Made by a program: the position numbers and the translations under genes | Notes under the pieces: generated by a model | Database searches by the model: none | Told to the model about the DNA's origin: nothing | What the model saw: only the letters and a program-made list of their open reading frames with translations | Shown: positions 1,702-22,528 of the stretch, one piece after another | Numbering within the stretch: position 1 is the stretch's first letter | Layout of the letters: every line of letters begins with the position of its first letter | DNA from: a virus | Direction: 5' to 3' (one strand) | IMG/VR virus record: IMGVR_UViG_3300022752_000415 | Coordinates: 1 to 22,724 of that record | Length of the DNA stretch: 22,724 bases

Positions 1702-2952
1702 TTAATCAATAAATGATGCGCCAGAATCTGTAATTGTAAAGTCAATTGCGATAAATTCTATTGCTCTTGCTGGCTTCAAGAAGATTTTGGCATACATGAT
1801 ATTTCTATCAACCAAATCTGGTGTTGTAGTGGTTTTGTCAAGGATTACGCGATAGTCAGAAAGACCTAGGCGAGACTTAACAGAAGCAAGGAATGGATTT
1901 GCTTGACCCAAGAATCTACTCCAAGTTACATCAACATTTTGGTCAAAGAGAATTGTTGCAGCAATTCTTGAAATTTCTCTCTTTAAGTAAATCATTAATC
2001 TACGAACATTAATTCTATCAAGTGCAGATGGAGTTACTTGTAATGTCTTTTGACCAAAGATAACAATACCTTCTGCTGGGAATTGAGCGATAGGATTGAT
2101 GTTGGCTTCATAAAGTGTGTCTCTATCAGTTGAAGAAAGTCTTTGTGTTACGCCGATAACTGGAATGCCGCCACGACCCTCAGTAAGACCACCACGGGTG
2201 AAGCCTGCTGGAGCGAACCAAAGTTCTTGCGTTCTTTGTCCATATGACATAGCGCCAAGTGCTACAACAGATGGTGGAACGAATACAAGTTGGTCATTGA
2301 TGGTGTCACGGATTTGTACCCAAGGATAATAGCAAGTACCATAACTTGAATTTAAACCTCTTGATTTAATGTCAAGTGCTGCTTGTCTTGCAGTTCCAGC
2401 ATATCTTGAAGTTCTATTTGAAAGATATTGTTCTTGTTCTGGAATATAAACGTTTGGAAGGTCTATAACGGCAAGTACATCTGCTCTTGCTTCACAGGTT
2501 TGAACCAACTTGGTTGTCAAAGGAGCATAAGTAAGACCGGGAACACATGCAACATCAGTTACTAATGTTTCTGGGTCTGAGATTGTATCTATTGCTCTGC
2601 TAAGAGTAAAGTATTCGTAACTTGTACGTTCAGTTGGTGAACCGTCAGAAAGAATCTTGTTTCTAAGTGGGTCTGCTTCTGTAATGTCGAATCCGTCAAA
2701 GCCGTTATAGAATGGCATTGTGAAACGATTGTAAGCATTAGAGCCTGTTATAATTGAACGATATCCACCATTTACTGCGGTAATTGATGTGGTTGCTGCT
2801 CTAGAGCCAGATACATAAACATATCCAAGTCCAGTAGAAGTAGAACCAGAAACATCATCTAATGAGAATACAAATGAATTTTCTCTATAGGCTTCGTTAC
2901 CATAATCATATTGGTCGTCACTACCAAATGAAGATGGAAATGCTCTTACCAT
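1702..2952 (-). CDS. gp18: Tail sheath protein gp18, C-terminal part after a frameshift
   Basis: This frame holds the C-terminal part of the contractile tail sheath protein, whose N-terminal part is at 2946-4529 in another frame. Homologous sequence in this frame begins upstream of the ATG at 2952: codons from about 3033 read SPVTNAYFGITTGEKTAY, a typical sheath segment, then continue in frame. The ATG at 2952 has no Shine-Dalgarno site, so it is not a credible start. Sheath hallmarks follow: LWFAPAGFTRGGL, INPIAQFPAEGIVIFGQKTL, and the conserved C-terminal domain INVRRLMIYLKREISRIA with TWSRF and a final set of strands, KIFLKPARAIEFIAIDFTI. These are the parts that form the interlocking sheath core. 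Rejoining the frames near 3033 would give a protein of about 942 residues. Nothing else in the gene looks decayed, so I read it as one gene with a one-base error or a recent mutation. Confidence 0.8.
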   Translation of the reverse strand: MVRAFPSSFGSDDQYDYGNEAYRENSFVFSLDDVSGSTSTGLGYVYVSGSRAATTSITAVNGGYRSIITGSNAYNRFTMPFYNGFDGFDITEADPLRNKILSDGSPTERTSYEYFTLSRAIDTISDPETLVTDVACVPGLTYAPLTTKLVQTCEARADVLAVIDLPNVYIPEQEQYLSNRTSRYAGTARQAALDIKSRGLNSSYGTCYYPWVQIRDTINDQLVFVPPSVVALGAMSYGQRTQELWFAPAGFTRGGLTEGRGGIPVIGVTQRLSSTDRDTLYEANINPIAQFPAEGIVIFGQKTLQVTPSALDRINVRRLMIYLKREISRIAATILFDQNVDVTWSRFLGQANPFLASVKSRLGLSDYRVILDKTTTTPDLVDRNIMYAKIFLKPARAIEFIAIDFTITDSGASFID

Positions 2953-3090
2953 ATCAGCATAACTGTAATCATAAGTTGTATATGCTGTCTTTTCACCAGT
3001 TGTGATACCAAAGTATGCATTTGTAACTGGAGAGATGCAGATTGTCTTAATGGAATTGCTGGGAATACCATATTTGCTGTTAAATTAGCA
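2946..3090 (-). other. Frameshift zone in the tail sheath gene
   Basis: In this stretch the N-terminal sheath frame and the C-terminal sheath frame are both open. The second frame opens after an in-frame TAA near 3084, and the first closes at 2946. Joining them at about 3033 by adding one T (GCA TCT TCT CCA) gives PLRQSASSPVTNAYFG with no loss of sheath-like sequence. The plus strand here reads GGAGAGATG, a short dinucleotide run that could lose a base in sequencing or assembly. A real null mutation in an essential tail gene is less likely, and I see no signal for programmed frameshifting. Confidence 0.75.
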
Positions 3091-4529
3091 ACTGATGCCG
3101 ATAAGAATACGCCGGAATTGTATGCTCTTGCATATCCACCAGAAACAACAGTATTAACAGGAGCAGCAGAAGAAGAATTATTTATAATTGGAATTGTGAA
3201 ACTTTTTGGTCTTGGTGGTCCAAAGAAACCAAATGGTAAGTAAGTTGGGTCTATTGCACCAGCATCAACATCTGCATCCATTTCGACGCGAACGTGCTTT
3301 GATACATTTGTGTATGTACCATATTCTTTTAATCTCTTTTCGGTATCATCCCAAGCAACGTATTTATCGCCAATCTTTCTTGCAATATAATTTGGTGAAA
3401 CTGGATTTAAGTTAACATTTGTGTATTGTTCGACAACGCTAACATTGTTATCAGAATCTGTAACTCTTCTTAATTGTACAGAGAATGAACCGTAATCATC
3501 AAAATCAGTTGCTGGTGGTTTAATGTCAGTAATGGATACTTTGATGTTTTGTTGTAACCATTCTCCGTTATCTAACCCAACAAATCTAAATAATTTTTGT
3601 TGTAATGCTGGATTGTATGAACCAGAGTTTGTTGTTAAATCTTGACCAATAATCCAGCCTGTTTTTGCTGGTCTAGTTGGAGAACGGAACTTGTTGTAAC
3701 TTACAGTACCGCTTACTAATGGGGCAATAAATGCATATGTTGATAATGAACCAAGTCCAACTACTTCATCAAGGCTTCTTTCGAAACTTTCTCCAAGCCA
3801 ATAATATTCAACGTTGCTTGGAGCAGTAATTTCTGAATTTGTTAAGATTGGATTAGTATTAAATACTTTTCTAATGTACTTATCGGAATCTACATTAAAG
3901 TTGAAGTTTGATGCATATGTTCCGTTTGGAGTGGTAACTACAGCATAAAACTCTGAGTATCCACCATTTGATTTAATAAGAACGTTAGTACCAGATACAT
4001 ATGTTGGTGATGTATCAGAACCAGCAAATGTTCCAGAAAGAGCAACAGAACCAGTCTTCATATACCAAATGGCAGCGAGTGTACCAGAAACTGTGGAACT
4101 ATCTGAACCAGATTGCATAACAAATAAACCGTATGCACCACCACCAGAATCGTTAGTAGCAAATGTTGGTACTTCCCAACCTGCAACACCATCTGGTGTA
4201 GCATTTGGACTTTGTGTACCGAGTAAGCGAATAATATTAACAGCAGGAGTGTTCGTTAACCATGCTTGTGCAGCATAACCAGCATACATTGTTCCAATTG
4301 TATTTCCATCACGCCAAACATCATCACCAGATTTACCGGGAACTGGATTTCCAAAGGTTTCAACCAATTGTGATTTAGAGGTAATATAAACAGGACGATT
4401 GGCTGGTCCTCTTATGAAGCGACCAATGATAGTTGGTCCTACAAGGTTAGAAGTGTTTGGAAGTTGGGATTCATCAATCTCTTGAACTTGAACACCGGGA
4501 GAAACGAATCTATATGAGGTTATAGCCAT
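2946..4529 (-). CDS. gp18: Tail sheath protein gp18, N-terminal part before a frameshift
   Basis: The N-terminal part of the contractile sheath, which surrounds the tube and shortens on infection. It opens with the classic sheath start MAITSYRFVSPGVQVQEIDE (residues 1-20), followed by GPTIIGRFIRGPANRPVYIT and LVETFG, the conserved N-terminal subdomain. The ATG at 4529 follows an AGGAG Shine-Dalgarno site. The last good residues are VFPAIPLRQSAS (to about residue 499). The following 28 codons (SLQLQMHTLV and onward, to a stop at 2946) do not resemble sheath, while the alternative frame continues with sheath sequence. A single missing base near 3029-3036, where the minus strand reads GCATCTCTCCAG, would explain it. 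There is no X XXY YYZ slippery heptamer there. A promoter-like motif lies 32 bases upstream of the ATG at 4562-4570. Confidence 0.85.
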   Translation of the reverse strand: MAITSYRFVSPGVQVQEIDESQLPNTSNLVGPTIIGRFIRGPANRPVYITSKSQLVETFGNPVPGKSGDDVWRDGNTIGTMYAGYAAQAWLTNTPAVNIIRLLGTQSPNATPDGVAGWEVPTFATNDSGGGAYGLFVMQSGSDSSTVSGTLAAIWYMKTGSVALSGTFAGSDTSPTYVSGTNVLIKSNGGYSEFYAVVTTPNGTYASNFNFNVDSDKYIRKVFNTNPILTNSEITAPSNVEYYWLGESFERSLDEVVGLGSLSTYAFIAPLVSGTVSYNKFRSPTRPAKTGWIIGQDLTTNSGSYNPALQQKLFRFVGLDNGEWLQQNIKVSITDIKPPATDFDDYGSFSVQLRRVTDSDNNVSVVEQYTNVNLNPVSPNYIARKIGDKYVAWDDTEKRLKEYGTYTNVSKHVRVEMDADVDAGAIDPTYLPFGFFGPPRPKSFTIPIINNSSSAAPVNTVVSGGYARAYNSGVFLSASVANLTANMVFPAIPLRQSASLQLQMHTLVSQLVKRQHIQLMITVMLIW

Positions 4530-5490: not shown

Positions 5491-6759
5491 TTATCCCACA
5501 AATACCAATGATGGTATTTTCTGTCCAACTTTTTGAAGATTATCTGATAACGTACCTTGTTGCTCAATAATCTTTGGATAAGTCATTTCAGCAAGAATTG
5601 TCTTTAATTCATCGCGCAATTCTTTCTTTTCCGCTGCTGCCTCTGTTAATAAAGCAGTACCATTTAATTGCACAGATTCGCCGGGAATTGGTATTATATT
5701 AAACTTAGAACGAACGTGTCCTAATATTTCCTTGCAAACAGCAAGTGCATATCTTCTAATCCATTGCTTACCAATTGAATTTATACTTTCGTATGGTATA
5801 TTAGCAAATGGAAGAGTGTTCATGTTATTAACACCATTTACACCAGTATCAACTCCTTGTTCGTTTTCTGTCCAAGGGTCTGAAGGAATTGTAAATTCAA
5901 CCCAGAACTTTTGTGGAGTTGCAATATTTGGTACTGGGAACAATCTTAACATATTGTTTTTGATTTCAAAAGAATAATGTGAGTTTCTAGTATATATTGC
6001 AGTTTCGTATGCCATTGCTTGAAGTTTGTTTTGCCATGTTGGAATAACTTCAAATGTTGAATCATCAGCATATTGTCCATAAGAAGACATATTGCCAATT
6101 GTATTCAAGCCACCATAATAGCCAAAAAATCTCCACATGGATTGTGGAGTTTTGTAAAACACTCTTCTTATAACAACTTTCTTTGAACCTACTTTACCTG
6201 CATATGGAACATTATTACCATTAACATCTATGCCACTAACTGAGGCTGATTCAATTATGTTTTGTAAATCATAATCTTGAACATCAACAACTGTACTTAA
6301 TGAAGCTGAATATATTGGGTCATTTGATGATAAACCGCCTTCAAGAGCAAATGCTTTACCGTAGTTCCTAAAATAATCAAGAGAATACTTTGGATACTTT
6401 AAAGCGACGTTTATAGCTCCAGAAACAATTTCACCATCTTGGTCAAATGAACCAGTTGATTTACCAAGCATTGATGGAAGTGCATTTGTTGCTTGATGAA
6501 GATTAACAAGGTACGAATACTCTAATACTGCTTCTTCATATGCAGCATAAACATTTCCAGTTGTTAATTCAATATCTAATATGTCACCACCAAGTTTCTT
6601 ATAAACATATGCAACTTGGTCTGCTGCGCCAGATATAAATGCTGGTGAATCAGAATAAATTCCAAATGGTAATGCTACAGCAACATCGCTAAGATTACCA
6701 GCAGAAGGAAGAACAACAGCACTTAATGTGCTTGCAGGGGTTAAAGTAGGAACAGCCAT
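5491..6759 (-). CDS. gp13: Neck / head-completion protein, gp13-like
   Basis: A 422-residue protein. I start it at ATG 6759-6757; a longer frame from TTG 6822 would run into the terminator and add a poor leader. The block GDILDIELTTGNVYAAYEEA (about residues 58-77) and the following VLEYSYLVN look like the helical core of head-tail adaptor proteins, and I associate this signature with neck proteins annotated gp13 in T4-like environmental phages. Later it has MWRFFGYYGGLNTIG and a C-terminal helical part (YALAVCKEILGHVRSKF, then LRDELKTILAEM). Its position between major capsid and gp15-like genes agrees. T4 gp13 is shorter (309 residues). The start is unusual: there is no Shine-Dalgarno site, and the CTATTTATT motif ends two bases before the ATG. 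An alternative reading is a different head-tail connector subunit with the same fold. Confidence 0.55.
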   Translation of the reverse strand: MAVPTLTPASTLSAVVLPSAGNLSDVAVALPFGIYSDSPAFISGAADQVAYVYKKLGGDILDIELTTGNVYAAYEEAVLEYSYLVNLHQATNALPSMLGKSTGSFDQDGEIVSGAINVALKYPKYSLDYFRNYGKAFALEGGLSSNDPIYSASLSTVVDVQDYDLQNIIESASVSGIDVNGNNVPYAGKVGSKKVVIRRVFYKTPQSMWRFFGYYGGLNTIGNMSSYGQYADDSTFEVIPTWQNKLQAMAYETAIYTRNSHYSFEIKNNMLRLFPVPNIATPQKFWVEFTIPSDPWTENEQGVDTGVNGVNNMNTLPFANIPYESINSIGKQWIRRYALAVCKEILGHVRSKFNIIPIPGESVQLNGTALLTEAAAEKKELRDELKTILAEMTYPKIIEQQGTLSDNLQKVGQKIPSLVFVG

Positions 6760-6761
6760 AC

Positions 6762-6770
6762 AATAAATAG
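6762..6770 (-). promoter_or_regulatory. Putative late promoter motif upstream of the gp13-like gene
   Basis: The coding strand reads CTATTTATTGTATGGC, with the ATG only two bases after the nine-base motif. It lies just after the terminator that ends the capsid transcript (6821-6850), so a new promoter is expected here. Transcription starting the usual 5-7 bases after a minus-10 element would begin at or inside the start codon, which would give a leaderless mRNA or none for this gene; see findings. Confidence 0.45.
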
Positions 6771-6887: not shown

Positions 6888-8663
6888 TTATGCGCCGGAT
6901 TCACCGAACATGCCACGGATGACGACCAAGCCGTAGAAGTCTGGTCTAATCATCTTCTTGGCGTAACGGGTCATAACGCCCTTACGTGGTACGAAGTCCT
7001 CAATACCAAAGATGGTTGGAGTAACTTGTAATGGAACGTATGGAGCATATACGAAGCCGCTTTCAAGGAAGGAGCTTCCCTTACGACCGACGAGGATGAC
7101 GTTACGGAGGAAGTATGGATCGACATATACATCCCATTTCTTAGAAATGGAACCTACATTAACGACACCAACTTCACCCTTGTCGTCATCTACTGCGATT
7201 CTGGCTTTGAATCCTGCTGTCATTTCAAGAATTGAAGCAACTTCTGGGTTACAAACGAGGAAGTTTGCACCGCCACGAAGAGTCTTTCTGTGGATTTGAG
7301 CAGATACGTCATTGATGGTTTCAATGAGGGTTTCGTACCACATTGATACGTTACCAGTAAAGTCTGGAGCCTTTGCAGAGGCACCAACTTCCACGCCAGT
7401 AAGTTTATTGACGAAGAGGCCGGGGCTTCTTGACCAGTAGAATGTACCAGCAGTTGCACCTTTAACGAGGTCTTCAAGAATTTCACGGTCAATTTCAAGG
7501 CCGATTTGCTCGGAAAGAATTGAGGTTAATTCAACTTCTGCATCCAAGTTGTGGTAAGCATTGAGGTCTTGACCAAGTTCTGGGGACCATTTTGCTTTCA
7601 TTTTCTTGGTTACAGCGGTAACGCTTACAGAATCGACTTTGATATCGATTTCTGGGATTGCGGTGTTACCTTCCAAGCCCCATGAATCAGTACCAACTAC
7701 TGCACCAAGAGCGTTGGTTGTGCCAGCGGCTGGTGTTCCAGAGAAATCGTCGGTTTGAGCATAGGAGAGTGTGGTTGTACCAGAAAGAACCATATCTGTG
7801 AGGATATTGGCAACAGTTGCTGTATCAGATGCAAATACGAGATAAGCATTTGTCTTTGAGGTTGCAGAACCGCCAAGAGCAGTTGCACCATCACCAAGTT
7901 GGGTTAATCTTCTAACCAAACGTGTTCTACCAGCAGAACCTGTTGCATTGTTTCCAACAGATGAACTGAATGAAACGGTAACGAGGTCTTTGAGGTTAAG
8001 TTGGCTAAATGAAGCAAGTGGTGTTGAGAATACTGCAACATTTGTTGTTCCAGAAGCAAAGTCTGCATCGTAACGAACCCATTGGTCAAGATATGCACCA
8101 CCACCAGAAGTTGCACCAGCACCGAAAGTACCAGAGGCAACAAGTGTTAATGCGGCAGAGTGTGAGCCAGTTGGTGAGGTATAGCCGTTATTGAGGTTGT
8201 AGAAACCTTTTTCAGCGTTTGCACCAGTTAAACTAACACCGCCTGTGATTTGTTGACCAAGGACGCCTTGACCATAAACGGAATCATTGGCTTCGTATCC
8301 AAGTCTTGGACCAGAACCTGCTGTTGAGGAAATGTTGAAGTCAAGGAAGAAGATAAGACCGCTTGGGAGTGACATTGGTTGAACTGAAACGAGGTCGTTT
8401 GCAATCAAACCAGCGAATACTCTACGAACGATTGGGAATGCTACGGCAGCAAAACCTTCTACGTCGCCAGCAGCCATGCTGGAGGATTCACGGAGAAGTT
8501 CTTTTGCTTGGTTTTCAAGCAAACGAGCCATGCCGTGACGAGTTCTTTCATCTGACAAGCCTTCTAAAAGACCAGTCTTTTCCCACTTTTGAACGAGGGC
8601 ATGACCTTCTTTGCGTAAGTCTCTATTGACCATGCCTTCTGTTAATTTTTGAATAATAGACAT
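6888..8663 (-). CDS. gp23: Major capsid protein gp23
   Basis: A 591-residue precursor of the main head shell protein (T4 gp23 is 521). The N-terminal 59 residues are the helical, charged leader of T4-like capsid proteins (MARLLENQAKELLRESSSMA). After it comes the conserved start of the mature HK97-fold domain: FAAVAFPIVRRVFAGLIAND, LVSVQPMSLPSGLIFFLDF. Later conserved blocks include MKAKWSPELGQDLNAYHNLD with AEVELTSILSEQIGLEIDRE, and near the C-terminus YVPLQVTPTIFG and KKMIRPDFYGLVVIRGM. A likely gp21 cleavage site is LRE/S at residues 57-60. The ATG follows AAGGAG eight bases upstream. The gene follows the scaffold gene with a 20-base gap and no promoter motif between, so they are probably co-transcribed. 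Codon use is visibly more GC-rich than in most neighbours, as expected for the most abundant protein. No gp24 vertex paralogue is in the window. Confidence 0.95.
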   Translation of the reverse strand: MSIIQKLTEGMVNRDLRKEGHALVQKWEKTGLLEGLSDERTRHGMARLLENQAKELLRESSSMAAGDVEGFAAVAFPIVRRVFAGLIANDLVSVQPMSLPSGLIFFLDFNISSTAGSGPRLGYEANDSVYGQGVLGQQITGGVSLTGANAEKGFYNLNNGYTSPTGSHSAALTLVASGTFGAGATSGGGAYLDQWVRYDADFASGTTNVAVFSTPLASFSQLNLKDLVTVSFSSSVGNNATGSAGRTRLVRRLTQLGDGATALGGSATSKTNAYLVFASDTATVANILTDMVLSGTTTLSYAQTDDFSGTPAAGTTNALGAVVGTDSWGLEGNTAIPEIDIKVDSVSVTAVTKKMKAKWSPELGQDLNAYHNLDAEVELTSILSEQIGLEIDREILEDLVKGATAGTFYWSRSPGLFVNKLTGVEVGASAKAPDFTGNVSMWYETLIETINDVSAQIHRKTLRGGANFLVCNPEVASILEMTAGFKARIAVDDDKGEVGVVNVGSISKKWDVYVDPYFLRNVILVGRKGSSFLESGFVYAPYVPLQVTPTIFGIEDFVPRKGVMTRYAKKMIRPDFYGLVVIRGMFGESGA

Positions 8664-10982: not shown

Positions 10983-11905
10983 TATGCTACTGTCCCGTTT
11001 CCTAAATAAATAGTTTCTGTATAATTTAATGTTTGTCCTTCAACGGCAATTTCTGCATATCTTGCTGCTGTAAATGCTACGCCTAATGTCACAACAACCC
11101 AAGCAAGTTGATTGTTTGACCACCCAAGAACATAACTTGAACGATTTTCTGATGGTGGCGCTAAAACAGATGGAGTTGAAGTTGAGTTATAATAAGGAAC
11201 ACTATTGCTTGCTGAAGGAAATTGTTTTGTATTTAATTCATCAATTGAAGATGATAAAGCAAAACCGCTAATTGATAATTCTTTTGATACTCCATTTCCA
11301 TTAACATCAACAATTGATGTTAATACTTGTATTCCACTTGCTCCTCTGATTTCTAAAGAGTCAGAGCCAGTTGCAACTAACGTTGTTTGTCCATTAACAA
11401 CTATATTTTTGTAATGTGAGCCAATTGAAACTTCTATTTCGTTTGTTGCAGATTGTGAAACTTGAAAACCTGTATTGTTATCAAACTTTATTTTTGATAC
11501 TTTGTTGTCAAAAGAAACTCCCTCTGCACTTGTACCAGATACTGAGAGACTTATTGGTAATCCTACATAATTTGATGCTGTTATTGTTGTTAAGGAAATA
11601 CTATCTGCAAGATTTAAAGTTACAGCACCAGTAGTTCCACCACCAGATAAGTTTGTTCCAGCAGTTACAGAAGTTATATCTCCACTTCCTCCACCACCTC
11701 CACCAGAAACACTTTCAAGCGATGAACCGTTTCCTGCAAATAAAGATGCGCTAAGTTGTGTAGCAGAGATTGAAGCAACAAGATTTCCGCTTACATAAAA
11801 GTCAATTTTATCGCTACTAAAATCAATTTTGGTAGCTCTATTTGGGTCGTCTGCCGCAACTAAGTCGCCAATTACTTGGGTTTGTTTATTGTAACCATAT
11901 GCCAT
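10982..11905 (-). CDS. Fibre-like virion protein with glycine linker (307 residues)
   Basis: A 307-residue protein that looks like part of a phage fibre. The N-terminus (MAYGYNKQTQVIGDLVAADD, then KIDFSSDKIDFYVSGNLVAS) matches fibre proteins that begin with a virion-binding strand region, and resembles the start of the next gene upstream (MAYKFSIGQYRHSGSLVAEE). Residues about 65-75 are a Gly/Ser linker, followed by SVTAGTNLSGGGTTGAVTLN, a segment typical of phage tail fibres. Later parts are Ser- and Asn-rich beta repeats. The gene ends in TAATG, overlapping the next gene. The start is unusual: no Shine-Dalgarno site and the CTATTTATA motif two bases before the ATG. A strong terminator ends the preceding gene just upstream, so this gene must have its own promoter. 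Confidence 0.7.
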   Translation of the reverse strand: MAYGYNKQTQVIGDLVAADDPNRATKIDFSSDKIDFYVSGNLVASISATQLSASLFAGNGSSLESVSGGGGGGSGDITSVTAGTNLSGGGTTGAVTLNLADSISLTTITASNYVGLPISLSVSGTSAEGVSFDNKVSKIKFDNNTGFQVSQSATNEIEVSIGSHYKNIVVNGQTTLVATGSDSLEIRGASGIQVLTSIVDVNGNGVSKELSISGFALSSSIDELNTKQFPSASNSVPYYNSTSTPSVLAPPSENRSSYVLGWSNNQLAWVVVTLGVAFTAARYAEIAVEGQTLNYTETIYLGNGTVA

Positions 11906-11907
11906 AC

Positions 11908-11916
11908 TATAAATAG
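11908..11916 (-). promoter_or_regulatory. Putative late promoter motif upstream of the 307-residue fibre-like gene
   Basis: The coding strand reads CTATTTATAGTATGGC. The nine-base motif ends two bases before the ATG, as at 6762-6770. On the plus strand the same bases read TATAAATAG, a perfect T4 late consensus pointing the other way. It lies just after a strong terminator, where a new promoter is needed. Confidence 0.45.
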
Positions 11917-14449: not shown

Positions 14450-15483
14450 TAGAAGATATACCACCCTGTTGTATCTTTATAGATAGATATTGCTACATGG
14501 TCAATATCTAATGTAGTAAAATCTTCCAAATCTATTTGTTCGCCAGCAGAAGCCGATACTACAACAGCATTAATATCAGCCAAACCAGACAAATCTTTAA
14601 TAACAAATACTTTACCATTATCTACCGATGAAAGAGTTGGAAGAGTAACTACAATACCAGAATAATTCGTATTAACACCAATAAAGTAATCATCAACATC
14701 AACATTGTAACTTGAAGTAATTACAGTAGTATTAAAAGAAATATTATTTGACGAAACAGAAGTTCCGTTTAGTATTAAACTACCACTTATATAAACAGAA
14801 CCAGTTATATAAACTGAATCATTTGGGTTGTCGCCCAAGTAAGTATTATTCTTGACAACCAAATTATTGCTAGCAGTTACGTTTGTAAATAAACCAGTTG
14901 CAGTTGGATTATAAGTAGAAGCAGAACCAGTAGATGTTGAGGTTGTAAGTCTTGTTGGTGTTACAGTATTACCAGTAAACTGAGGATTAAATACACCTTC
15001 TCTTGCACGAATACAATTTGCAACAATTTCAAATTTGTTTTCTATCTGACCAAATAGTTGTTTTGGTTCATTAAGTTTTACTATTTCGTAATATCTATCG
15101 CCGTATAAAATGTAATCGCCTTCACGAACATATAAATCTTGGTCTTCTGTTAAGCGTTTTTTATGAAAATGAATTTCAATAGAAGTTGCTTTGTCAATAC
15201 CTATATTTTGAGTAAATGATTGAGTTTGACCTTCCCACTTAACCAAAGCATATACTCTAACTGGTGGAAGAAATGTTTTTTGTATTGCTTCGCCATAAAG
15301 TGGATGAAAATCTGATTTATTAATATCAATTGCAAAATAAGCAATCTGTTGACCAATGACTCTTTCGATAAGTTCATCATTGACTTGTTTGACAAGATTA
15401 CGCTCTTTCTCTCCTGTGAAAAGCGGAGGAGGAGGAGTTGCGGGTTGTGACCAAGCAGTATCCGATTTCTTTTTACGTGGCAT
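14449..15483 (-). CDS. gp14: Neck protein gp14-like, fused to a fibre C-terminal module
   Basis: A 344-residue two-part protein. Residues about 30-165 follow the order of T4 gp14 as I remember it: a helix (VNDELIERVIGQQIAYFAID), LYGEAIQKTF, VRVYALVKWEG, then VREGDYILYGDRYYEIVKLN (T4 has EGDLIYFPMDNSLFEINWV), KQLFGQ and FEIVANCI. gp14 joins the head and tail at the neck in T4. From about residue 170 the sequence turns into Thr/Ser/Asn fibre-like repeats with YLGDNPNDSVYITGSVYISG, and residues 266-344 are the module shared with three other proteins (YFIGVNTNYSG, FVIKDLSGLADINAVVVSA, ending GWYIF). T4 gp14 (256 residues) has no such extension. The start lacks a Shine-Dalgarno site, with the CTATTTATA motif four bases upstream. 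It lies in the fibre island, far from the other neck genes. Alternatively only the fold is shared and the protein is a neck-attached appendage. Confidence 0.6.
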   Translation of the reverse strand: MPRKKKSDTAWSQPATPPPPLFTGEKERNLVKQVNDELIERVIGQQIAYFAIDINKSDFHPLYGEAIQKTFLPPVRVYALVKWEGQTQSFTQNIGIDKATSIEIHFHKKRLTEDQDLYVREGDYILYGDRYYEIVKLNEPKQLFGQIENKFEIVANCIRAREGVFNPQFTGNTVTPTRLTTSTSTGSASTYNPTATGLFTNVTASNNLVVKNNTYLGDNPNDSVYITGSVYISGSLILNGTSVSSNNISFNTTVITSSYNVDVDDYFIGVNTNYSGIVVTLPTLSSVDNGKVFVIKDLSGLADINAVVVSASAGEQIDLEDFTTLDIDHVAISIYKDTTGWYIF

Positions 15484-15487
15484 TATT

Positions 15488-15496
15488 TATAAATAG
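15488..15496 (-). promoter_or_regulatory. Putative late promoter motif upstream of the gp14-like fusion
   Basis: The coding strand reads CTATTTATAAATAATG, so the nine-base motif lies four bases from the ATG with no Shine-Dalgarno site. TATTTATAAATA here is a perfect palindrome, so the T4 late consensus TATAAATA is present on both strands. This is the only copy where direction cannot be assigned from the motif alone. Confidence 0.45.
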
Positions 15497-20046: not shown

Positions 20047-20313
20047 TTACCCTCGCTTTTTATTATAATTATTATCATTTTGAGAATTTATCTTTTTTTC
20101 AAATTCTCTTCTTCTTTTATTTTCGTTTTTAATTCCTTCAAGTTTTGCTCTTCTGCGAACAACTGATGGTTTCTCGTAATATCTTCTTTCTCTTACTTGT
20201 TCTACAACTCTTTCTTTTTTAACTTTCTTGATGAATCTTCTAAGCATTCTTTCAAATGGTTCATCTTTCTTTTGCTCTACCTTTGCATTAACATGTGTAC
20301 TTTTTTTAGACAT
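20047..20313 (-). CDS. rpsU: Phage-encoded ribosomal protein bS21 homologue
   Basis: An 88-residue, very basic protein that matches bS21, the small-subunit protein near the anti-Shine-Dalgarno end of 16S rRNA. Residues 17-30 (DEPFERMLRRFIKK) match E. coli NEPFDVALRRFKRS, and residues 38-57 (EQVRERRYYEKPSVVRRRAK) match [20 protein letters not shown], in the same order and spacing. It has 16 extra N-terminal residues and a polar C-terminal tail rich in Asn and Lys. E. coli bS21 is 71 residues. The start follows AAGAGG; the ATG lies within the end of the preceding gene (8-base overlap), so it is translated with structural genes. bS21 homologues are known in some aquatic and large phages; the likely role is to enter host 30S subunits and favour phage mRNA. 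That role is inferred, the homology is plain. Confidence 0.9.
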   Translation of the reverse strand: MSKKSTHVNAKVEQKKDEPFERMLRRFIKKVKKERVVEQVRERRYYEKPSVVRRRAKLEGIKNENKRRREFEKKINSQNDNNYNKKRG

Positions 20314-21211
20314 ATAAACCTCTTATTTCGTTAAGTCTTTTTTTAAGTTTTCTAACTCTATTTTCTCTTTGTAATTGCTGAGAAATACTCTGTTTCATTT
20401 CCAAACCAGAGCCATAATCATAATCGCTATATCTTATAAATATTTTATCACCAAATACTTTGTCAATTTCTTGTTTCATTTGACTGTTATCGTCAAAATA
20501 ATCTCCCCAAAATGATTTTAATTCAGTTGGTTTAAATCCAAGAACAACATTACCTTCTTCATTTTTTGATTTTGTTGTTATATCTTTATCATATTTAACA
20601 AGAGTTTTTTGTACTTCCATACCAAGACCAATTGTTAAAGCATCAAGAGGTTTTGGTGCGCCAAGTTTGCCCTCTTCTGAGGCGCTTGTTACCATTCCAC
20701 TTCTTCCTTGTTGTTCCATTTTATCTTGAAATTTAGAAACAAGAATGTCTCTTACAAGTTGAGGGTTGTTAATCTTTTTAAGTTCTTCTTTTTGAAATTG
20801 AAATACTTGTTGTTGTTTTTCCTCTTCAGAAAGTTTTTGATTGTATTTTAATTCTTTTTCTTTTTGGATTTTTGCACCCTGCAAAACACCAGCAACAATT
20901 TGTGCTGCGCCGTCTGAATTTAGTCCGTAAGAAACAATTCTTTGTTCTGCGTTAGAAACAATTTGGTCAAATTCTTGCATTGCATCTGGTTGTGTTATTT
21001 CTTGTTTTATTTGTTGTATAGTTTGAGCAGCAGTATTAGCGTTTTGACTTATAATAGCCGAAAGTGCTATCATTCCTATGACATTACCAATTTGTCTTGT
21101 TTTACCTTTTAAATAATCCAAAACGCCTTCTTCAATTAAATATTGTTGTAATTCTTCACGAATTACGGCACGAAGTTGATGTTCATTAATTTTTATTTTA
21201 TTTGTTTCCAT
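20306..21211 (-). CDS. Putative internal head or structural protein (301 residues)
   Basis: A 301-residue protein without a family I can name. Residues 8-30 are an amphipathic start, INEHQLRAVIREELQQYLIE, similar to the starts of two neighbours and containing [IL]xE sites of the kind cut by T4-type gp21. Residues 41-54 (IGNVIGMIALSAII) are hydrophobic but short for a membrane segment. The rest is helical and Gln/Lys-rich, with possible coiled coils (e.g. EKELKYNQKLSEEEKQQQ), and ends in RENRVRKLKKRLNEIRGLYV. It starts 19 bases inside the end of the preceding gene, with AGGTGG upstream, and overlaps the bS21 gene by 8 bases. It could be packaged in the head and processed by gp21, but could also be a scaffold or tail assembly protein. 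Confidence 0.5.
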   Translation of the reverse strand: METNKIKINEHQLRAVIREELQQYLIEEGVLDYLKGKTRQIGNVIGMIALSAIISQNANTAAQTIQQIKQEITQPDAMQEFDQIVSNAEQRIVSYGLNSDGAAQIVAGVLQGAKIQKEKELKYNQKLSEEEKQQQVFQFQKEELKKINNPQLVRDILVSKFQDKMEQQGRSGMVTSASEEGKLGAPKPLDALTIGLGMEVQKTLVKYDKDITTKSKNEEGNVVLGFKPTELKSFWGDYFDDNSQMKQEIDKVFGDKIFIRYSDYDYGSGLEMKQSISQQLQRENRVRKLKKRLNEIRGLYV

Positions 21212-21628: not shown

Positions 21629-21637
21629 TATAAATAG
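21629..21637 (-). promoter_or_regulatory. Putative late promoter motif upstream of the 139-residue protein gene
   Basis: The coding strand reads CTATTTATAATGTATTGGATTG, and the ATG of the next gene is 16 bases past the motif, leaving room for a short leader with a weak TTGGAT site. It directly follows a hairpin (21640-21662), giving a terminator-then-promoter layout. Confidence 0.55.
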
Positions 21638-21639
21638 AA

Positions 21640-21662
21640 AGCGGCACAATAAATGTGCCGCT
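21640..21662 (-). terminator. Hairpin, probable terminator after the lysine-rich 77-residue gene
   Basis: On the minus strand AGCGGCAC pairs perfectly with GTGCCGCT (8 base pairs, 21655-21662 and 21640-21647) around the loop ATTTATT; the stem can extend with GAA/TTC. The following bases are TTCTATTTAT, a poor U tract that overlaps the promoter-like motif. It lies 26 bases after the stop of the 77-residue gene. Confidence 0.7.
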
Positions 21663-21687
21663 TCTATGCAATTTTGAATTTAAAAAA

Positions 21688-21922: not shown

Positions 21923-22528
21923 TTAGTATTTTCCTTTTTTGAGAATATTGTTAATTAAACTATTGATTTTGTTTTCTCTGCCTTCAATCAAGGATTTCTT
22001 TTGCTCTTGCATCATGAATGCTCCGCGAGTTGAAGGTTCGGAAACCATATCAAAGCATATAAGTTGAAAATCGTCTTCTACTATTGTACCTTCTCTGCTT
22101 TCTCTTACAGAACCTGTACCTCTTGAAGAAATGCCGATTTTTACATTTGCTTCAACTAATGATTTTAAAACTTGTCCGGATGGTGTATTAAGGACTTGTA
22201 TTTTTCCCATTAAGTTATTTTTATCCCACCAAATTTCAGTAACTAAATGAGAAACATTTCTTAAATTAATAACAGATTGGTCTGGGTGGTCAAGTTCTCC
22301 TAACGCTCTTCTTTCTTGTACAAGTTTTTTGTAATTTTCTGCTTCGCGTCTTAAAACATCTTCAGTATAAATTCTGTTATTTCCATTTGCTTCGCCAAAA
22401 CGCTGCATGACACCAGTTAATATGGTGCCACCATTTTTTATAAAACGTTTATCAGATTCTGTTAAAACATCCTCGCAATATCCGTCTGGACAAAGTTCAT
22501 AGTATTCTCTTAATAATGGTTTAGACAT
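21923..22528 (-). CDS. gp21: Prohead core protease gp21
   Basis: A 201-residue protease of about the usual length for gp21 (T4, 212). It should cut gp22, gp23 and internal proteins after [IL]xE sites while the head matures. Conserved features: GVMQRFGEANGNNRIYTEDV (residues 39-58), then GELDHP (77-82) with the likely catalytic His81, NVSHLVTEIWWD, VLNTPSGQVLKSLVEANVKI, and GISSRGTGSV (132-141) with the likely nucleophile Ser134 or Ser135, then FDMVSEPSTRGAFM. The His and Ser boxes and the SRGTGSV loop match T4-like prohead proteases. A short CPDGYC motif lies near the N-terminus. The Shine-Dalgarno site AGGAAA lies within the end of the upstream microgene, so the two are likely coupled. Confidence 0.92.
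   Translation of the reverse strand: MSKPLLREYYELCPDGYCEDVLTESDKRFIKNGGTILTGVMQRFGEANGNNRIYTEDVLRREAENYKKLVQERRALGELDHPDQSVINLRNVSHLVTEIWWDKNNLMGKIQVLNTPSGQVLKSLVEANVKIGISSRGTGSVRESREGTIVEDDFQLICFDMVSEPSTRGAFMMQEQKKSLIEGRENKINSLINNILKKGKY

Follow-up and report, generated by a model that had tools for sequence, protein, structure and literature searches.

A phage bS21 gene lies in the head module of a T4-like myovirus fragment, within a run of genes and putative control elements whose order is conserved, and bS21 is nearly a core gene of the phage family to which the fragment belongs. We favor a model in which this paralogue, probably made late in infection, would enter host 30S subunits and bias initiation toward late phage mRNAs. 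The fragment, called the window here, is the whole 22,724-base stretch of an IMG/VR virus record and was assigned by its gene content. It holds both genes that characterize a T4-like myovirus head module, encoding a gp21 protease and a gp23 capsid protein, and these genes and the tail sheath gene are all on the minus strand (Table 1). The sheath gene (1702-4529) is broken into two frames near 3033-3036, a position at which relatives have a single frame of 930-942 amino acids, and the split is either a genuine frameshift or an assembly error. A tRNA scan of the window and three large relatives found none, and an Rfam search of the window returned no match.

Table 1. Features of the window, listed from the protease gene downstream
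Feature	Position	Strand	Remarks
Prohead protease (T4 gp21-like)	21923..22528	-	Peptidase_S77 2.3e-24; phrog_207
Terminator-like hairpin	21638..21664	-	adjoins the motif on its upstream side; -18.5 kcal/mol
CTATTTATA, late-promoter-like motif of the bS21 unit	21629..21637	-	same arrangement in all relatives examined
X, 139 aa	21193..21612	-	re-called start, ATG 21612; leads the bS21 unit
Y, 301 aa	20306..21211	-	upstream of bS21, 3' end overlapping its start; no family match
bS21 (rpsU-like), 88 aa	20047..20313	-	PF01165, phrog_21469, AF2 model, Ka/Ks
Z, 142 aa	19615..20043	-	starts 3 nt past the bS21 stop
CTATTTATA	15488..15496	-	begins 13 nt upstream of the start codon at 15483; arrangement shared by a similar gene in six relatives
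CTATTTATA	11908..11916	-	begins 11 nt upstream of the start codon at 11905
Major capsid protein (T4 gp23-like)	6888..8663	-	PF07068 (Gp23) 2.6e-72
CTATTTATT	6762..6770	-	begins 11 nt upstream of the start codon at 6759 (gp13-like gene)

A preliminary description of the window had identified the open reading frame at 20047-20313 as bS21, and three kinds of sequence match agree with it. The product scores 48 bits against Pfam PF01165 (Ribosomal_S21; cut-off 27, E 1e-12), it matches the PHROGs family annotated 'ribosomal protein S21', and its best matches among solved structures in the PDB are bS21 chains (E down to 1.8e-9). The AF2 model is helical (pLDDT 80) and has E. coli bS21 as its top fold match (probability 1.00); this match is short, with an E of 0.04 and a low TM, and lends the predicted bS21 fold weak support. 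The PF01165 core (F, YxKPS and a basic helix) is present, and its KPS and F residues are conserved across phage and bacterial bS21. In place of the glycine of the turn, the window protein has an arginine. Residues 13-69 align with 5-61 of the E. coli chain, an offset of 8 residues, which shortens to about 8 the N-terminal extension that had been put at 16. Ka/Ks values are 0.05-0.36, and the gene is under purifying selection.

Searching cultured phages with the window bS21 by tblastn returned nothing, even at E 10, although Microcystis phage Mel-JY01 and Pelagibacter phage HTVC008M both carry annotated bS21 genes. Low-complexity filtering or divergence is the likely reason, and we therefore do not take a tblastn miss as absence. 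An asparagine/tyrosine motif in the tail occurs in 34 of 177 phage bS21 tails and none of 53 bacterial ones; we set it aside, since it is partly clade-bound.

The unit around bS21 has a conserved order: hairpin, CTATTTAT late-promoter-like motif, X, Y, bS21 and Z. Every relative that was examined has the hairpin, immediately followed by CTATTTAT, 1.3-2.2 kb upstream of bS21, and the hairpin covaries (in an alignment of 11 copies, 9 of the 11 base pairs are preserved by compensatory changes). Most relatives in the wider family also have a homologue of X close to bS21. Close packing around bS21, which the preliminary description had pointed out, is borne out at both ends of the gene, where Y (21211..20306) overlaps the bS21 start by 8 nt and GAGGG, the Shine-Dalgarno (SD) site of Z, runs into the bS21 stop codon. 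Of 15 relatives, 14 retain the Y/bS21 overlap, and in these 15 the gene after bS21 begins -14 to +5 nt from the bS21 stop, so the arrangement is more than chance. The same description had called Y structural in type; Y is indeed the gene upstream, and its search against Pfam and PHROGs gave no family match, so that the label derives from the neighbors.

The motif that heads the unit recurs through the window and beyond it. CTATTTATA has 4 exact copies in the window against 0.34 expected, and CTATTTA occurs in the 80 nt before genes at about 14 times its overall density. The motif was also recovered de novo from the upstream regions of 962 genes in other phages of the wider family, where the commonest upstream 8-mers were ACTATTTA (80 vs 8 in gene interiors) and CTATTTAT (71 vs 6). 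We read the CTATTTA type as a putative late promoter, which would be like the T4 late promoter, TATAAATA (PMC2984593), in role but differs from it in letters. Late production of bS21 along with head and tail proteins, as had been proposed earlier, can be inferred from the conserved terminator-like hairpin and late-promoter-like motif, and is in line with RNA data for other bS21 phages (PMC9723584).

Retention of the gene across the family is nearly complete. Among 77 loci that were found by protease sequence and extend at least 5 kb downstream, taken from the best 80 of two scans, 76 have bS21, always on the same strand and downstream of the protease at a distance of 192-3,559 nt; near-copies occur among these loci, and one of the scans was seeded with proteases of bS21-positive loci. 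The exception (L258, also G010) is a fragment in which the protease is followed by two Z-like genes and whose 43.5 kb contain no bS21. It offers a natural comparison for the presence of bS21.

Such a fixed place among head genes, held in nearly all relatives, is also what would be seen if a basic bS21 had turned into an internal head or assembly protein that is packaged with the DNA, and packaging was raised for other phages by Chen 2022 (PMC9723584). We consider this quite improbable for the window protein, because the residues conserved in bacterial bS21 remain conserved in it. An [LI]xE protease site is present in X, in Y and in the small protein encoded between X and the protease gene, and absent from bS21; this difference counts for little, as Z also has no site and is itself probably a virion protein, judging by an AF2 beta-sandwich model (pLDDT 81) with weak matches to viral beta-sandwich proteins. 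An LTExxLRxxIRxEL-like motif, accompanied by [LI]xE sites, is common to the N-termini of the products of several neighboring genes (those starting at 21211, 21612 and 21921, and genes in two relatives, G001 and G002); it may be a head-targeting peptide that the gp21 protease cleaves.

Phage bS21 proteins fall into two kinds. Our first scans gave 113 loci with a non-Bacteroidota bS21 (the window, Mel-JY01 and 111 partly overlapping IMG/VR loci), in which the fraction of genes with SD sites is 0.45-1.0; in 21 loci found with Flavobacterium johnsoniae bS21 it is 0-0.17. An aromatic residue at the Tyr54 position is implicated in anti-SD blocking in F. johnsoniae (PMC9976891, PMC9723584). It is present in 21 of 21 Bacteroidota-type phage proteins versus 2 of 138 of the window type, and the window itself has a lysine there. 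The bS21 gene and gp21 share a strand in all 95 window-type loci and lie on opposite strands in all 16 Bacteroidota-type loci. The simplest reading is that the two kinds are separate acquisitions, each matched to a type of host. Both kinds depart from bacteria at the turn: 49 of 53 distinct bacterial cores have its glycine, which is absent from 118 of 153 window-type and 7 of 8 Bacteroidota-type phage cores, although the bacterial figures need wider sampling because bacterial bS21 was sampled through phage-like patterns. An acidic residue three positions past the turn glycine is found in most proteins of both phage kinds. As a separate observation, the Bacteroidota-type phage bS21 genes (L217-L237) do not have the strong SD that autoregulates host rpsU, and may escape that autoregulation.

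These patterns bear on the host and on what the window bS21 does. Genes on the replication side are SD-rich in the window family too (9 of 16 and 14 of 23), and the relative G010 is as SD-rich as the others with no bS21 seen, so SD use does not require bS21. The abundance of SD sites argues against a Bacteroidetes host for the window phage, and we dropped the idea of a Bacteroidota host with an unblocked anti-SD in view of the SD-rich replication-side genes and the SD-rich relative that lacks bS21. Since SD sites are also found before genes that lie outside the structural block, the window bS21 is probably not the anti-SD unblocking device that Bacteroidota would need. A bS21 tree had been proposed as a way to find the host source; it gave no source and placed phage bS21 as a group of its own (66 columns, weak branches), and as bacteria entered it only via phage-like peptide patterns, it neither names nor excludes a host. 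A related phage contig (L035, PBOB01000007.1) had been assigned to the bin of an Acidiferrobacteraceae MAG; this hints weakly at a host for the wider family, and we did not take the MAG as a host.

Published bS21 phages resemble the window in part. The Bacteroidetes phages of Chen 2022, in which bS21 lies beside the prohead protease and is transcribed with late genes according to metatranscriptomics, likewise hold bS21 in the T4-like gp21/MCP region, but on the opposite strand and with the Tyr54-type aromatic kept; the window bS21 is same-strand and overlapping, lacks the aromatic and stands among SD-rich genes (PMC9723584). In the cultured relative Mel-JY01 (PP395634.1), a gene annotated as RpsU has the corresponding place on the same strand soon after the prohead protease, but its sequence is very divergent, the turn glycine is retained and SD use is weaker. 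HTVC008M bS21 belongs to the same protein family as the window's, but its gene is between cobS and hsp20/clamp genes rather than in the head module. Flavobacterium phage immuto (MW353176.1), which by capsid and protease (45-48%) is one of the nearest cultured relatives, has no bS21 in its 160-kb record, and its genes are SD-depleted. In L194 and L034 (Flavobacterium phage immuto), SD-like sites precede 6% of genes versus 16% of internal ATGs, which suggests selection against such sites before genes.

Three window genes had been described as lacking SD sites and as possible targets of bS21 tuning. The absence of the sites is real (starts 15483, 11905 and the re-called 6759), but tuning is doubtful. 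In each case the motif lies 11-13 nt before the start codon, and if the spacing is T4-like, transcripts would start at that codon or close to it. The mRNAs are thus probably leaderless and would not pair with the anti-SD. Before many genes that do have SD sites, the motif is 20-60 nt away. CTATTTA at 8-14 nt before the start is found for 18 of 118 SD-less genes versus 1 of 229 SD genes (Fisher p 2e-8, a count that orthologous genes inflate), and genes with this arrangement form a conserved class of late genes whose mRNAs are probably leaderless. The same enrichment would suit specialized ribosomes for leaderless late mRNAs, with phage bS21 shifting the balance between SD-led and leaderless initiation, and 61S particles, which favor leaderless mRNAs, do lack bS21 (PMC12186496). 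However, that published link is to loss of bS21 and not to a paralogue, and the leaderless starts here come from motif position, in a comparison inflated by orthologues; we regard this explanation as highly improbable.

We instead favor selection of late phage mRNAs. The phage protein would be a paralogue of a ribosomal protein that is loosely bound and exchangeable (PMC12186496), and, made late with head and tail proteins, it would swap with or supplement the host protein on 30S subunits. The phage-specific basic turn, perhaps together with the tail, would then shift initiation to abundant late phage mRNAs, which would mostly carry SD sites and meet an exposed host anti-SD. We infer 30S binding and mRNA selection because of published phages (PMC6375957, PMC9723584) and the heterogeneity of bacterial bS21, in which variants or absence of the protein in Francisella (bS21-2) and F. 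johnsoniae shift which mRNAs get translated (PMC9578407, PMC9976891). Those are cellular genes, whereas the window bS21 is a phage gene.

HTVC008M bS21 incorporates into E. coli 70S ribosomes and lowers in-vitro translation to about 5% (Mizuno 2019, PMC6375957), so inhibition instead of selection is possible. Phage bS21 would then mainly shut off host translation, or replace lost bS21 in bulk, with no selection of mRNAs, and the loose, exchangeable binding of the protein fits this. We think it rather unlikely: a late-type unit is late for shut-off, virion protein synthesis needs active ribosomes, and the heterologous host may account for the published inhibition.

Phage bS21, and the hypothesis that it refits host ribosomes late in infection, are already published (PMC6375957, PMC9723584). 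What is new, as far as we know, is that bS21 is close to a core gene in one family, that it belongs to a conserved transcription unit, that leaderless mRNAs may explain the SD-less genes, and that phage bS21 comes in two contrasting kinds. A broader and speculative reading, to which we give little weight, is that a large aquatic family of T4-like phages has bS21 as a core late gene and not as a transient acquisition, and that both types reached the same turn change (the near-invariant glycine lost, usually to a basic residue, with an acidic residue three on), a phage-specific form that would specialize ribosomes for late phage mRNAs, including the leaderless class. The finding bears on whether phage ribosomal proteins reprogram host ribosomes, and the family offers several handles on that question: nearly all members retain the gene, its transcription unit is fixed, one relative has no bS21 in 43.5 kb, there is a residue signature that could be mutated, and SD-rich phages can be compared with SD-poor ones.
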